From the NCBI RefSeq assembly GCF_011058165.1, contig NZ_JAALEG010000058.1, positions 1 through 41,142 of the forward strand: a DNA stretch of 41,142 bases. The letters run 5' to 3'. Shown here in pieces: positions 7,477 to 36,487 of the stretch. The notes beneath the pieces are model-generated. The model did no database searches and was not told the origin of the DNA. It saw nothing but the letters and a program-made list of their open reading frames with translations. Position 1 is the first letter of the stretch. Each line of letters starts with the position of its first letter. The DNA comes from Rhodococcus aetherivorans. Lineage in GTDB: Bacteria > Actinomycetota > Actinomycetes > Mycobacteriales > Mycobacteriaceae. Position numbers and translations under genes: made by a program.

Positions 7477-8619
7477 GTGCCTGTCGAGCGCCTGCTGCCC
7501 ACCCCCGAGGCCTACGACCTCATCGAACTGACCCGCGACGTCGCGGACAAGGTTCTCGCCCCGCGGGTCGTCGAACACGAGCGCACCGAGACGTTCCCCG
7601 AGGGGGTCTTCCCGGCCCTCGGCGCGGCGGGGTTGCTGAGCCTGCCGTACCCGGAGGAATTCGGCGGCGGCAACCAGCCGTACGAGGTGTACCTGCAGGT
7701 GCTCGAGGAGCTCGGCGCCCGCTGGGCGGCGGTTGCCGTCGCGGTGAGCGTGCACGGGCTGTCGTGCTTCGCGCTGGCCACCCACGGCACCGACGAGCAG
7801 AAGAACAAGTGGCTGCCGGACATGCTCGGCGGCGACACGATCGGCGCCTACAGCCTCTCCGAGCCGCAGGCCGGGTCCGATGCCGCGGCCCTGGCCTGCC
7901 GCGCGACGGCCGTGGACGGCGGCTACCGGATCTCCGGATCGAAGGCGTGGATCACCAACGGCGGCAAGGCAGACTTCTACACGCTGTTCGCCCGGACCTC
8001 CGACGCCGGCTCGAAGGGCATCTCCTGCTTCCTCGTGCCGGCCGGAACCGAGGGCCTGAGCTTCGGTAAGCCCGAGGAGAAGATGGGTCTGCACGCCATC
8101 CCGACCACCACCGCCCACTACGACGACGCGTTCGTGCCCGGCGAGCGCCGCATCGGCGCCGAGGGCCAGGGCCTGCCGATCGCGTTCAGCGCGCTCGACT
8201 CGGGCCGGCTCGGCATCGCGGCCGTCGCGGTGGGTCTCGCGCAGGCCGCGCTCGACGAGGCCACCGCATACGCCAAGGAGCGCAAGGCGTTCGGCAAGAA
8301 GATCATCGACCACCAGGGACTCGGGTTCGTCCTCGCCGACATGGCCGCCGCGGTGGACTCGGCCCGCGCGACGTACATCGACGCCGCGCGCCGCAAGGAT
8401 GCCGGCCTGCCCTACTCGCGGCAGGCGTCGGTCGCCAAGCTCGTCGCGACCGATGCGGCGATGAAGGTGACCACCGACGCCGTGCAGGTGCTCGGCGGCT
8501 ACGGCTACACCCGCGACTTCCCCGTCGAACGTTTCATGCGGGACGCGAAGATCACCCAGATCTTCGAGGGCACGAACCAGATCCAGCGGCTGGTCATCGC
8601 GCGGCACCTGGCCGGCTGA
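7477..8619 (+). CDS. Acyl-CoA dehydrogenase
   Basis: A 380-residue FAD-dependent acyl-CoA dehydrogenase, the usual family length. The N-terminal helical domain is followed by the middle beta domain with AYSLSEPQAGSDAAAL and the flavin-contacting WITNGG. The C-terminal domain holds ERKAFGK and QVLGGYGYTRDFPVERFMRD. The catalytic base is probably Glu364 in QIFEGTNQIQ, the position used by short- and medium-chain enzymes. It catalyses alpha,beta-dehydrogenation of an acyl-CoA, passing electrons to ETF; chain length cannot be inferred. The GTG start has gaggag six bases upstream. Control by the divergent TetR protein is likely. Confidence 0.93.
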   Translation: MPVERLLPTPEAYDLIELTRDVADKVLAPRVVEHERTETFPEGVFPALGAAGLLSLPYPEEFGGGNQPYEVYLQVLEELGARWAAVAVAVSVHGLSCFALATHGTDEQKNKWLPDMLGGDTIGAYSLSEPQAGSDAAALACRATAVDGGYRISGSKAWITNGGKADFYTLFARTSDAGSKGISCFLVPAGTEGLSFGKPEEKMGLHAIPTTTAHYDDAFVPGERRIGAEGQGLPIAFSALDSGRLGIAAVAVGLAQAALDEATAYAKERKAFGKKIIDHQGLGFVLADMAAAVDSARATYIDAARRKDAGLPYSRQASVAKLVATDAAMKVTTDAVQVLGGYGYTRDFPVERFMRDAKITQIFEGTNQIQRLVIARHLAG

Positions 8620-8627
8620 CGGTGTGA

Positions 8628-8675
8628 ACTCCCGGCAGCCCCGGGGCGCGCACTCCCGGCGGCGTCGGGGCGCGC
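8628..8675. repeat. Two-copy 24-bp tandem repeat
   Basis: Two adjoining 24-base units (8628-8651 and 8652-8675) both begin actcccggc and end cggggcgcgc, with three mismatches between them. They lie directly after the acyl-CoA dehydrogenase stop. No function is apparent; each unit is GC-rich and could contribute to transcription termination. Confidence 0.6.
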
Positions 8676-8786
8676 GGCCGTCCTCCCCGGCGGCTCGCGC
8701 ACCCCGACACCGCCCGGATAACTCCTGCCGTGGAATCTGAAACATCCTCCTGTCAGATTTCGCGAACCACCTGCTACCGTGCGCCG

Positions 8787-8954
8787 GTGGACAGACGCCG
8801 TAGGCGTGGCCGCAGAGCCGCGGACCGGATGGAGTGGGCGGCCGACGCCGCGGACACGGTGGCGACACTCGCCGAGCTCGGCGTCCTGTTCCTGCGGCTC
8901 CTGTCGCTGCCGTTCCGCGCGGTGGCGGCGCTGCTCCGGATGATCGCGGACTGA
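8787..8954 (+). CDS. Small hypothetical protein with one membrane-type helix
   Basis: A 55-residue product that I do not recognise. It begins with a strongly basic stretch ([12 protein letters not shown]), then an acidic/alanine segment, then a hydrophobic helix (LGVLFLRLLSLPFRAVAALL) ending near the C terminus. A -10-like TACCGT at 8775-8780 puts a transcription start at or next to the GTG at 8787, so a leaderless message is plausible. An in-frame ATG at 8730 would add 19 residues with no ribosome site. It is followed by 126 bp and then the 21-codon gene. Basic N terminus plus a single helix suggests a small membrane-associated protein; the gene could also be spurious. Confidence 0.45.
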   Translation: MDRRRRRGRRAADRMEWAADAADTVATLAELGVLFLRLLSLPFRAVAALLRMIAD

Positions 8955-9033
8955 CCTCCGACCCCTCGCCGTTCCCCTCGGTATCCTGCGTCACATTTTC
9001 TGGGCAAAGCGGACAGCCTGTACTTAGATCTTG

Positions 9034-9061
9034 TTGGACGTACGTCCAGGATTTGTACATC
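9034..9061 (+). promoter_or_regulatory. Promoter with 14-bp palindrome ahead of the 21-codon gene
   Basis: A perfect palindrome, tggacgtacgtcca, spans 9035-9048 and overlaps a -35-like TTGGAC (9034-9039). A -10-like TACATC (9056-9061) follows at a 16-bp spacing. The arrangement suggests a repressible promoter with a TetR-type operator over the -35 element. The regulator is not identifiable from the window. Confidence 0.6.
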
Positions 9062-9080
9062 GACATCGGAGGTAATTCCC

Positions 9081-9146
9081 ATGCTGCTCGGCTCGCTCGG
9101 CTCCCTGATCGACCACGTGCTCTCCTTCCTCAGCTGGCTGATCTGA
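9081..9146 (+). CDS. 21-residue amphipathic hydrophobic peptide
   Basis: A very short ORF of 21 codons with an excellent ribosome site (cggaggtaattccc directly before ATG 9081). The peptide starts MLLGSLGS and ends SFLSWLI. Its polar residues (Ser5, Ser8, Asp11/His12, Ser15, Ser18) fall three to four apart, so a helix would have one polar and one strongly hydrophobic face. It has a promoter with a palindromic operator upstream and a strong terminator 21 bp after its stop, so it looks like a complete transcription unit. Possible roles are a PorA/PorH-like envelope pore peptide, a type I toxin, a small membrane regulator or a leader. No homologue is claimed. Confidence 0.6.
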   Translation: MLLGSLGSLIDHVLSFLSWLI

Positions 9147-9167
9147 GAGACGCCTCGACGCGTAGCG

Positions 9168-9199
9168 AAGGGGGCGAGGTCATCCGACCTCGCCCCCTT
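9168..9199. terminator. Strong hairpin terminator, possibly bidirectional
   Basis: A perfect 14-bp stem (aagggggcgaggtc / gacctcgccccctt) with a 4-base loop lies 21 bp after the 21-codon gene and 29 bp beyond the stop of the convergent mycolyltransferase-like gene. A short T-containing tail (gctgttt) follows on the plus strand and the stem supplies the paired A/T ends on both strands. Confidence 0.85.
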
Positions 9200-9228
9200 G
9201 CTGTTTCCGTCACGCGTGCCGGGCCGCG

Positions 9229-10233
9229 CTACGCGCCGATCGCCTCCGCGAGGATCGGCCAGGACTCGTGCAGCGCGTCCTGCCAGTAACCCCACGAGTG
9301 CGTGCCCTGCGCGCCCGTGCTGAAGGTCGCCTCGATCCCGAGTTCGTCGAAGGTCCGCCGCAGCCGCTCGGTGCACTGGGCCGTGGCCGCCTCGATGGAT
9401 CCGAGGACGACCAGGTCGACCGGATCCACCTGCCCGCCCAACGCCGCCTCGTGCGGGCCGGGCAGACCGCCGCCGGACGAGATGTACAGCGTCGTGCCGC
9501 GCAACTTCTCCGCGTTCAGCGCCGCATCGTTGGCGATCCACCCCGGTCCGCCGATCGGCCCCCACATGTTCTCGACGTCGCCGCCGCCGAGGGTGACGAC
9601 GGCCTCCACGTAGCTGCGCCCCGGGTCGCTGCTCGTCTGTGCACACCCGCTGTAGGACGCCACCGCCTCGTACAGCCCCGGCGACTGCTGGGCGAGGGCC
9701 AGCACCGAGCTGCCCGACATCGACATCCCCGCGACGGCGTTGCGGCCGTCGGCGCCCAGCACCGCGTCGACGACCGGCGGCAACTCCGACGTCAGGAACG
9801 TCGCCCACCGGTGCCGGCCGAGCTTCGGGTCGTCGCGGATCCAGTCCGTGTAGTACGCGAAGGCGCCGCCCACGGGAGTGACGACGTTGACGTTCTTGCC
9901 GTCGAAGAACTCGCGGACGTCCGTCTGGTCCCGCCAGTTGGCGGCGTCCTCACCCCCACCGGCGCCGTTGAGCAGGTAGAACGTCGGTCGCGCCGCGGAG
10001 GTGTCCGCGGGCCGGATCACCTCGACCGGGATCACCCGGTCCATGGACGGCGAGTACACGTGCAGCACCCAGTCGCGCGCGGTCCGCTCCTCCACGTGAT
10101 CGACGTAGGCACCGGCCGGGTCCGCATCCGCAGCCGGCTGGGCGAGCGCCGGTGCCGTCAGCAGCGACGTCGCGGCGAGCAGTGCCACCGCCACCGTCGC
10201 ACCCCGTCGCCGGATCGCGGGCAAGTCCAGCAA
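9229..10233 (-). CDS. Secreted mycolyltransferase-like (antigen 85 family) protein 1
   Basis: A 334-residue alpha/beta hydrolase with a Sec signal peptide (cleavage near ALAQP, residue 32). Family features in order are YLLNGAGGGEDAANW, VVTPVGG with YYTDW, the nucleophile elbow AGMSMSG (Ser171), MWGP, the probable acid Glu281 in GSIEAAT, and His312 in GTHSWGYW. These match the Ser/Glu/His triad of the Ag85 mycolyltransferases, which move mycolic acids between trehalose, arabinogalactan and, in corynebacteria, small porin peptides. Cys197 and Cys287 may form a disulfide. The TTG at 10233 was chosen because gggagg lies about seven bases upstream; an in-frame GTG at 10251 is an alternative. Esterase activity on other substrates is possible. 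Confidence 0.85.
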   Translation of the reverse strand: MLDLPAIRRRGATVAVALLAATSLLTAPALAQPAADADPAGAYVDHVEERTARDWVLHVYSPSMDRVIPVEVIRPADTSAARPTFYLLNGAGGGEDAANWRDQTDVREFFDGKNVNVVTPVGGAFAYYTDWIRDDPKLGRHRWATFLTSELPPVVDAVLGADGRNAVAGMSMSGSSVLALAQQSPGLYEAVASYSGCAQTSSDPGRSYVEAVVTLGGGDVENMWGPIGGPGWIANDAALNAEKLRGTTLYISSGGGLPGPHEAALGGQVDPVDLVVLGSIEAATAQCTERLRRTFDELGIEATFSTGAQGTHSWGYWQDALHESWPILAEAIGA

Positions 10234-33657: not shown

Positions 33658-34731
33658 TCAGCCCTGCTCGACCTGCAACGCTCGGGCGAGAACCGGCCAG
33701 GACGCCTTCAGCTCGTCCTCCCAGTACCCCCACGAGTGCGTCCCGCTGTCGCGGAAGTTGAAGGTCGCCGGAATCCCCAACTCCTCAAGGCGATCGCGCA
33801 GATTTTGAGTGCAGTAGTTGGTGGCTGCCTCGATGACCCCGCCGACGACGACCTGGTTCGCGACGTTGCCCGCGTCGCCGTTCATCGCCGGGCCGTCACC
33901 GTTGTCGTACCGACCCGGCAAGCCGTTGCCATTGGAGACGTACAGTTCGAAGCCCCGTAGCCTCTCGGCATGCAGGTAGGGGTCGTTCGCAGCCCAGGCC
34001 GGGTCATCCGGCGGTCCCCACATGTTGACCGTCTTCCCGCCACCCCAGGTTTCCACGGTCAGCCGCACGAACTGCTGCCCGATCGGGTCGCTGGTCTGCG
34101 CGCACCCGCTGTATGCGGCGATGCCGCGGAACAGGCCGGGCTTTGCGGTCGCCAGGGAGAAAACCGATGTGCCGGACGAGGACAGACCGGCGATCGCGTT
34201 GACACCGTTGGCGCCGAGCGCGGCGTCCATGATCGGCGGGAGTTCCTCCGAGATGAAGGTCGTCCACTTGTTGTTGCCGAGCACCGGGTCAGGGTTTTTC
34301 CAGTCGGTGTAGTAGCTGAATCGGCCTGCCAGCGGAGAGACCACGTTGATGTTCTTGGCGGTCAGGAAGGAAATGGCGTCCGTCTGCAGGCGCCACGTGC
34401 CCCCGTCCTCGCCACCGCCCGCACCGTTGAGCAGATACAGCGTGGGACGTGGCTCGCTGGTGTCGGCGGGCCGCCACACGTCCACCGGGATCTCCCGGTC
34501 CATCGACGCCGAGTACACCCAGATGATGATCGAGTCCTCGTCGTAGACCTCGGCCTTGGTGATCTTCGAGCCGTTCGGCGCAGCGACGGACGCGAGCACG
34601 CGACCGGAGTCGAGGACGGGGTCCGCCGCGGCCGTTGACCATCCGGCGGCCAGCGGCACCGTCGCCGCCGTCAGCGCGACCGCTAGAGACCTCGCGACGC
34701 CGACCCCCACACGCTTGCTCATTCGACGCAT
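33658..34731 (-). CDS. Secreted mycolyltransferase-like (antigen 85 family) protein 2
   Basis: A 357-residue alpha/beta hydrolase with a signal peptide ending near STAAADP (residue 37). Family motifs are YLLNGAGGGEDGGTW, SYYTDW, the elbow AGLSSSG with Ser184, MWGPPDDPAW, Glu301 in VIEAATNYC, and His332 in GTHSWGYW. Cys210 and Cys307 are conserved in all three paralogues here and may be linked. It is closely similar to protein 3 (35402-36487), sharing the mature N-terminal pattern ASV..NGSKIT. The start at 34731 is a choice between clustered ATG/GTG codons (34722, 34746). It probably transfers mycolic acids in the outer envelope. Confidence 0.87.
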   Translation of the reverse strand: MRRMSKRVGVGVARSLAVALTAATVPLAAGWSTAAADPVLDSGRVLASVAAPNGSKITKAEVYDEDSIIIWVYSASMDREIPVDVWRPADTSEPRPTLYLLNGAGGGEDGGTWRLQTDAISFLTAKNINVVSPLAGRFSYYTDWKNPDPVLGNNKWTTFISEELPPIMDAALGANGVNAIAGLSSSGTSVFSLATAKPGLFRGIAAYSGCAQTSDPIGQQFVRLTVETWGGGKTVNMWGPPDDPAWAANDPYLHAERLRGFELYVSNGNGLPGRYDNGDGPAMNGDAGNVANQVVVGGVIEAATNYCTQNLRDRLEELGIPATFNFRDSGTHSWGYWEDELKASWPVLARALQVEQG

Positions 34732-35401: not shown

Positions 35402-36487
35402 ATGCTTCGATCGAAGACCCGAGCCGAGTCCGGTTCGCCGCCACGCGCGCAGGCACTCGTACTGCGATTCGTCGTTCCGGTCTGCGCGGCCCTGCTCGTG
35501 TCGCTCCTCGGCTCGCCGATCGCCGGCGCCGACCCTGTCGTCGCCCAGGGCCGGCCGATCGCATCGGTGGAATCGGCCAACGGATCGAAGATCACCCGGA
35601 TCGAGGTGCGCGACGCTCGCTCGGTGATCATGTACGTCTACTCCGGCTCGATGGACCGGGAGATCCCGCTCGACGTGCTGCGCCCCAGCGACACGAGCGT
35701 GCCGCGGCCGACGCTGTACCTGCTCAACGGCGCCGGCGGTGGTGAGGACGGCGCAACGTGGCGCGGGCAGACCGACACGGTCGAATTCCTGTCGGACAAG
35801 AACGTCAACGTGGTGACCCCGATGGCTGGCAAGTGGAGCTACTACACCGACTGGCGCGCCCCCGACCCGGTGCTCGGAGTCAACAAGTGGACGACGTTCC
35901 TCACGAAGGAGCTGCCTCCGCTGATCGACGCCGGATTGGGCGCCAGCGGTGTCAATGCGATCGCGGGCGTGTCCTCGTCGGGAACCTCGGTGCTGCAGCT
36001 CCCGATCGCCGCGCCGGGCCTCTACCGCGGTGTCGCAGCCTACAGCGGCTGCGCGCAGACCAGTGATCCAGCGGGCCGGCAATTCGTCGAGCTGACGGTG
36101 GAGACGTGGGGCGGCGGCGACACGGTGAACATGTGGGGCCCGCCGGACGACCCGGCCTGGGTGCAGAACGATCCCTATGTGAATGCCGAGAAGCTGCGCG
36201 GCCTCGAACTGTACCTCTCGACGGGATCCGGCATCCCCGGCCCGTACGACACACTCGCCAACCCGCGGGTCGGCGGCGACCCGGGCGTGCTCGCCAATCA
36301 GATCGTCGTAGGCGGCGTCATCGAAGCAGCCGTCAACGGCTGCACCCACAATCTGGCACGCCGGCTGGGCGAGCTGCAGATCCCGGCGACGGTCAACTTC
36401 CGCCAGACGGGCACGCATTCGTGGGGCTACTGGCAGGAGGACCTCGTGAATTCGTGGCCGGTTCTGGACCGCGCGCTGCAGGGCTGA
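35402..36487 (+). CDS. Secreted mycolyltransferase-like (antigen 85 family) protein 3
   Basis: A 361-residue alpha/beta hydrolase with an N-terminal signal sequence (hydrophobic core FVVPVCAALLVSLLGSPIAG, cleavage near GADP). Catalytic residues by motif are Ser191 (AGVSSSG), Glu308 (VIEAAV) and His339 (GTHSWGYW), with Cys217 and Cys314 as the shared cysteine pair. It is more similar to protein 2 than to protein 1, so 2 and 3 probably arose by local duplication. The ATG at 35402 has ggagagg about ten bases upstream. Transfer of mycolic acids to trehalose, arabinogalactan or protein is the likely reaction. Confidence 0.87.
   Translation: MLRSKTRAESGSPPRAQALVLRFVVPVCAALLVSLLGSPIAGADPVVAQGRPIASVESANGSKITRIEVRDARSVIMYVYSGSMDREIPLDVLRPSDTSVPRPTLYLLNGAGGGEDGATWRGQTDTVEFLSDKNVNVVTPMAGKWSYYTDWRAPDPVLGVNKWTTFLTKELPPLIDAGLGASGVNAIAGVSSSGTSVLQLPIAAPGLYRGVAAYSGCAQTSDPAGRQFVELTVETWGGGDTVNMWGPPDDPAWVQNDPYVNAEKLRGLELYLSTGSGIPGPYDTLANPRVGGDPGVLANQIVVGGVIEAAVNGCTHNLARRLGELQIPATVNFRQTGTHSWGYWQEDLVNSWPVLDRALQG

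Follow-up and report, generated by a model that had tools for sequence, protein, structure and literature searches.

A dispersed family of very short peptide genes in Rhodococcus and Prescottella, with a candidate place at the membrane or envelope

A compact peptide gene convergent to a mycolyltransferase

The window analyzed here is a 41,142-nucleotide stretch of the Rhodococcus aetherivorans genome (contig NZ_JAALEG010000058.1, positions 1 to 41,142; genome size 6.43 Mb), in which a small transcription-unit-like feature occupies positions 9024–9199. Four of its elements had been described in an initial annotation and were confirmed at the following places: a perfect 14-bp palindrome, TGGACGTACGTCCA (9035–9048); a Shine-Dalgarno sequence, GGAGG (9068–9072, plus strand), which lies 8 bases before the start codon and is conserved in six species; a 21-codon open reading frame (9081–9146, plus strand; ATG at 9081, TGA at 9144–9146) encoding the peptide MLLGSLGSLIDHVLSFLSWLI; and a perfect 14-bp terminator-like stem-loop with a 4-base loop (9168–9199, plus strand), situated between two convergent genes. 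Related species have a stem in the same position, its sequence being partly or wholly different. The convergent neighbor (9229–10233, minus strand) was correctly noted as mycolyltransferase-like; it matches PF00756 (1.5e-26) and is similar to Cmt1/MytC (45% identity to Cmt1), and any functional link to the peptide is putative. Further upstream on the plus strand, a short frame (8787–8954) encodes an arginine-rich and then hydrophobic sequence; a similar frame occurs in R. ruber (L051), and a different, longer one (L130) takes its place in genome G004.

The terminator stem scores 38 (the best of 100 shuffles reached 24) and is followed by the tail GCTGTTT, which is why a strict terminator scan of 8700–9400 (requiring 5 T in 8 bases) lists none. 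The 151-base stretch of the unit as a whole folds moderately better than shuffled sequence (z −1.96, with 10 of 200 shuffles as good). A search of 8600–9300 against Rfam gave no match at the gathering score, the best being asX1 over the terminator stem (34.8 vs 70 bits), which is a weak test for an antitoxin RNA.

The −35/−10 pair that had been annotated as overlapping the palindrome was not recovered. A consensus scan for sigma-70-type promoters over 8700–9400 found none on either strand (a weak test in actinobacteria), and the closest relative at the locus has TTGTCCAT where the window has TTGTACAT, 3' of the palindrome. We assign no −35 element. Six aligned species that carry the window's type of peptide (class A, see below) share three upstream blocks, namely TTAGAT/TTGAAT, the palindrome, and GGAGGT; the first, a −10-like block and putative promoter element at 9024–9029 (plus strand) in the window, lies 5–8 bases 5' of the palindrome. 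Because this conserved block lies just upstream, the palindrome is placed near the likely 5' end of the RNA, and we infer that transcription starts at or just before it.

Two readings of the palindrome were weighed. Its arms, TGGAC/GTCCA, are identical in the six class A species and the loop varies (GTAC/ATAC/AAAC), with no compensatory change beyond one U-G pair, so that the arms fit a protein site as well as a hairpin. No second site was found in the window's genome with up to one mismatch allowed, which speaks against the operator of a multi-site regulon; a single-site operator is possible. Across 18 genomes of the genus, a looser motif, GGACNNACGTCC with a ribosome site after it, gave six matches that are the peptide gene itself in six genomes; the other 14 rows (13 places), in which two of the motifs recur between genomes, compare with 8 matches for a reversed control. 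Reading the palindrome as a 5'-proximal RNA stem-loop (TGGAC-GTAC-GTCCA) owes to the other members of the family and not to the class A arms: the stem that scores best locally ends 22–34 bases 5' of the ATG in 23 of 29 copies, with differing sequences, and the operator was demoted to the alternative. The description of a self-contained unit for a real amphipathic peptide stands, and that of a promoter overlapped by an operator is unsupported.

The 5' stem exceeds the 95th percentile of shuffles in 16 of 29 copies, and its mean score is 18.0 in the family, compared to 13.1 in 19 control genes (taken from a rough ORF picker) and 11.7 in shuffles. In folding energy, the 60-base 5' region does not differ from the control genes (−17.8 vs −17.5), and the region of the window copy folds no better than its shuffles (z −0.48). 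In predicted folds, the Shine-Dalgarno sequence is for the most part paired, with a mean unpaired value of 0.194 in the family (n = 27), 0.161 in shuffles, and 0.308 in the same 19 control genes; sequestration of the ribosome site beyond that of shuffles is therefore unsupported.

Other upstream elements were noticed by eye. GTAAC elements precede nine copies (L042, L010, L125, L126, L090, L044, L106, L110, and L114), and in L010, L042, and L125 the GTAAC is placed ten bases after a GTGAC; as a lead, these may be MtrA/GlnR-like sites. GTGTC...GGGTAY blocks stand immediately 5' of the 5' hairpin in L105, L111, L113, and L116, and presumably resemble alternative sigma factor promoters. The literature accessible to our search offered nothing decisive on MtrA/GlnR-like GTAAC or GGGTAY elements of this kind.

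Family membership, distribution, and coding evidence

A DNA search of 61 genomes recovered the unit at 94% identity in G003 and at 71–75% in G017, G004, and G006, always with the 21-residue frame; weak matches (E of 10 or less in all 61 genomes) were taken up only for L009, L010, L014, L017, and L028. Further copies were found with a pattern consisting of a ribosome site followed by M-x-L-G-S-L, the reversed control of which gave no matches. When 84,980 species were scanned with one genome each, 25 stretches matched, 13 of which encode peptides of 21–32 residues, all in Rhodococcus or Prescottella; the other 12, which have frames of at least 59 residues in unrelated taxa (two of them cut by the stretch end), were dropped. 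L115, L121, and L122 (frames of 124–125 residues) were likewise dropped before the family was counted, and L156 (G049) was left out. Across 401 genomes of the taxonomic family (31 genera, from a larger group), a strict pattern matched 14, which belong to just two genera.

A family profile applied to 41 genomes recovered 22 of the 24 genus copies then known; the two that escaped it are G006:C2:4682911 and, next to the mycolyltransferase, the copy of G012. It additionally found a remnant in G002 and, in G017, a new copy, MLLGSLALTLGGLLLALGIIL, which has a ribosome site of its own and is flanked on either side by a hairpin (by eye). The window copy, whose peptide is itself a member of the profile, was found in its own genome at E 6.6e-8, and in these 41 genomes, a set without Prescottella, no match from outside the genus had an E below 0.39; matches at E 0.014 and above were left out.

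In total, the family comprises 30 copies in 18 genomes (28 distinct DNA copies, one found by synteny, and one by profile), with 25 in 13 of the 18 genus genomes and five in five of the 14 Prescottella genomes. Most copies (21 of 30) are 21 residues long, and the others have 27 (five), 28 (two), or 32 (two). Genomes carry up to three copies, and a convincing copy is absent from five of the 18 genus genomes. The second copy in the window's genome, MVLGSLAATLFTLLAGLGILL (G000:C202:25767–25829; L110, L123), lies about 220 bases or less from a contig end, and its R. ruber orthologue (L106) is preceded by an 11-bp 5' hairpin.

Two types of peptide can be distinguished. Class A, to which the window peptide belongs, is amphipathic with a polar stripe and has a hydrophobic moment of 0.35–0.41, equalled or exceeded by fewer than 1% of shuffles, which bears out the annotation of an amphipathic peptide; as judged from the sequence, it has no recognizable signal. 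Class B is uncharged and transmembrane-like, with a mean hydropathy of 2.0–2.4 in its 21-, 28-, and 32-residue forms, and the 27-residue Prescottella forms average 1.7–1.8. The window peptide had no match in Pfam, NCBIfam, PADLOC, or PDB sequences, nor did the other family peptides that were tried (one against Pfam, three against NCBIfam, and one against PADLOC). A mobile origin was considered and set aside, as one class B peptide had no match in plasmids and phages (a short query and a weak test) and the family pattern had none in viral contigs. The start hexapeptides MLLGSL, MILGSL, and MVLGSL led, within the literature text available, to one paper on an unrelated human protein, and no description of an LGSL family was met in the searchable literature on Rhodococcus small peptides, porins, and small ORFs, which takes in a minority of subscription papers.

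It is very probable that this is a translated gene under selection. All nine differences between L107 and L114 are silent and fall on third codon positions, and pN/pS ranges from 0 to 0.51 over eight groups (one of them with a single difference). Third positions account for 28 of 34 differences in group C, 39 of 56 in B1, and 54 of 84 in Prescottella, counts that are sums over sequence pairs and thus not independent. Selection is weaker in class A (44 of 104; pN/pS 0.48) and in the class B genes at the mycolyltransferase locus (12 of 24; 0.51). Met1, Leu3, Ser5, and Leu6 are invariant in 22 distinct peptides and the copies share the start consensus M-[LIV]-L-[GS]-S-L, although residues 3–6 (LGSL), Ser5 included, were largely demanded by the search patterns. 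Copies found by synteny are free of that demand, and those found by position alone (G011, G012, and G013) begin alike, apart from a G4S change in G012 (MLLSSLGDLLEQLLSALSALL).

The initial annotation had proposed a search of related genomes, and had stated that a conserved RNA structure around an unconserved peptide frame would point to a non-coding RNA. The opposite was seen, with the frame fixed and the hairpin sequence diverging. The peptide is conserved and a perfect 3' stem beyond all 100 shuffles is present in 23 of 28 copies, with L105, L108, L110, L113, and L114 having no outstanding 3' stem (imperfect stems are visible in some of these); the 5' stems differ in sequence across the family. 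Codon usage scores of the family range from −0.22 to 0.12 and give no sign of high expression. As a separate observation, TCT is the codon of Ser5 in 15 of 28 copies and of no other serine in the family, and it makes up 1–3% of serine codons in neighboring genes.

The mycolyltransferase locus and competing explanations

Fourteen genomes have a recognizable mycolyltransferase locus, which in 13 of them was called by a mycolyltransferase of at least 59% identity and by shared flanks where these were compared (the flank comparison left out L063–L067, from G005, G007, G010, G014, and G016). In G005, which is 75% complete, the call is based on a peptide gene convergent to a mycolyltransferase fragment and following the end of an acyl-CoA dehydrogenase gene. 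An intact peptide is present in 10 of the 14 genomes, belonging to class A in six (G000, G003, G004, G006, G012, and G017) and to class B in four (G005, G009, G011, and G013). Decayed remnants of the peptide gene were recognized in L058 (G002), L054 (G008), and L062 (G015), and nothing recognizable of it is left in G001. The peptide gene is dispensable. That several species have lost or exchanged it at the locus makes a core partner less likely and favors an accessory role, perhaps at the surface or in permeability. Two further mycolyltransferase genes lie divergently in the window (33676–34596, minus strand; 35492–36478, plus strand), and their PorA-binding-like segment is longer than that of the gene beside the peptide.

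A small channel protein is known from R. erythropolis. The initial annotation had raised the idea of a mycoloylated peptide of the PorA/PorH kind; in the version weighed here, the peptide would be exported without a signal, a Cmt1-like mycolyltransferase would esterify it on Ser5 (or Ser8), and it would be anchored in the mycomembrane. The best solved relative of the convergent neighbor is indeed Cmt1 of Corynebacterium glutamicum (4.5e-76), ahead of PS1 and antigen 85. In the parts of the sources available, MytC is given as the enzyme behind PorA, PorH, and ProtX mycoloylation (PMC11927696), the same enzyme is named Cmt1 (PMC11066868), and MytC is marked by a loop for peptide specificity and has orthologues in Rhodococcus (PMC5310785). 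The invariance of Ser5 in 22 of 22 distinct peptides, subject to the pattern demand described above, its Gly/Ser-rich small-residue context, which is like that of mapped sites (PMC11066868, available text), and the retention of the peptide in 10 of 14 genomes with the locus all keep the idea alive. Since no strict consensus for mycoloylation is given in the available text beyond Gly, Ala, and Ser being overrepresented near the serine (PMC11066868), the LGSLGSL start fits and pinpoints no site. However, for the 15 genus copies at other places, no mycolyltransferase (E 1e-80 or better) lies on the same contig closer than 20 kb, and the shortest distance is about 25 kb, in G013; the contigs of some of these copies, such as the second one in the window's genome, end close by. 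Moreover, the two other mycolyltransferases in the window are equally Cmt1-like. Between MWGP and the CT..L region, a segment that takes in the residues of Cmt1 put forward as binding PorA (PMC11927696, available text), the neighbor counts 73 residues and its orthologues 71–76, fewer than the 84 of Cmt1 and the 77–79 of five paralogues in the same genome. The peptide is also about half as long as PorA (45 residues; PMC12632848, in part), and the porins of R. ruber and R. corynebacteroides are described, in the text available, as signal-bearing and MspA-like (PMC9233653). Mycoloylation of the PorA/PorH type is thus possible, is not favored by us, and seems unlikely on balance.

A type I toxin-like membrane peptide under antisense or trans RNA control would account for a short hydrophobic product, up to three copies per genome, a narrow distribution, and hairpins, as well as for a Shine-Dalgarno sequence that is less open than in the 19 control genes; yet this sequence is no less open than in shuffles, and neither the promoter scan of both strands, the Rfam search, nor the plasmid, phage, and viral-contig searches (all within the scopes given above, the first two and the peptide query against plasmids and phages being weak tests) returned a match, which leaves this explanation rather unlikely. 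We would give the same low weight to the idea that the peptide regulates a membrane protein complex as a small subunit. Peptides of about this size that form a single helix do act in this manner, but paralogues inside one genome diverge strongly and neighbors vary among loci with no common partner by eye, the putative neighbors of other copies (judged by eye from sequence starts) including an enoyl-CoA hydratase, an HxlR-like protein, a transporter-like protein, a GAF-like sensor, and a LuxR/MalT-like protein. That the unit is a non-coding RNA or a leader with an incidental frame would explain the hairpins at both ends, but is very improbable given the codon-position bias and a frame that stays fixed while the hairpin sequence diverges. 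A leader or attenuator would require a same-strand gene downstream, and here the terminator is followed by a convergent gene, so that there is nothing downstream to attenuate.

Proposed role and comparison with known systems

The reading that we prefer, at a little short of an even chance, is that these are self-standing genes for single-helix membrane or envelope peptides, the unit in the window being a monocistronic small-protein gene that belongs to a family dispersed through Rhodococcus and Prescottella; the single-helix membrane or envelope character is suggested by peptide composition. The short mRNA would begin with one stem-loop and end with another, and should therefore be stable. The peptide, lacking a recognizable signal sequence, would then enter the envelope membrane as one helix and self-associate. 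Class B would provide an uncharged helix about long enough to cross the membrane, and class A, with its polar stripe, may rest on the surface of the membrane or form the lining of a small bundle. A likely role for such peptides would be to alter the permeability or physical properties of the envelope, the peptide type being swapped between species at a fixed locus. A more elaborate and distinctly improbable version is that they are lipidated 21-residue peptides that are exported without a signal, carry a mycolic acid on the invariant Ser5, and pack in the mycomembrane. The two chemistries, polar-striped and uncharged, would then be interchangeable and swapped between species at a fixed locus.

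The analysis points to a recurrent and selectively maintained gene family, mostly of 21 codons, that is covered by no Pfam, NCBIfam, or PADLOC model. Its layout (a hairpin, a ribosome site, about 21 codons, and a terminator) could serve as a search template for more such genes. To our knowledge, the mycomembrane protein content of genera other than Corynebacterium and Mycobacterium has been little studied. If the peptides reach the envelope, they would represent a new class of mycomembrane component, and if they were lipidated as well, they would be, as far as we know, the smallest mycomembrane proteins.

Several known systems offer points of comparison. The phenol-soluble modulins of Staphylococcus are peptides of about 21 residues that have no signal sequence and form an amphipathic helix; class A resembles them in all three respects, although it occurs in another phylum and is net negative, and class B is uncharged and hardly amphipathic. 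Type I toxins such as Ibs and TisB are small and hydrophobic and occur in several dispersed copies, and the present family is likewise short, hydrophobic, and present in multiple dispersed copies. KdpF and CydX are small membrane regulators of 20–30 residues with a single transmembrane helix, a feature predicted here as well, but no constant neighboring complex was seen around the family. Finally, PorA, PorH, and ProtX of Corynebacterium share with the family the lack of a recognizable signal, the short length, a helical character (judged here from sequence), a serine in a small-residue context, and a host that makes mycolic acids. PorH and PorA, at 57 and 45 residues, share an operon (PMC12632848, in the text available), and the family differs from them in both size and pairing, its peptides of 21–32 residues being encoded by single genes that mostly have 3' stems of their own.
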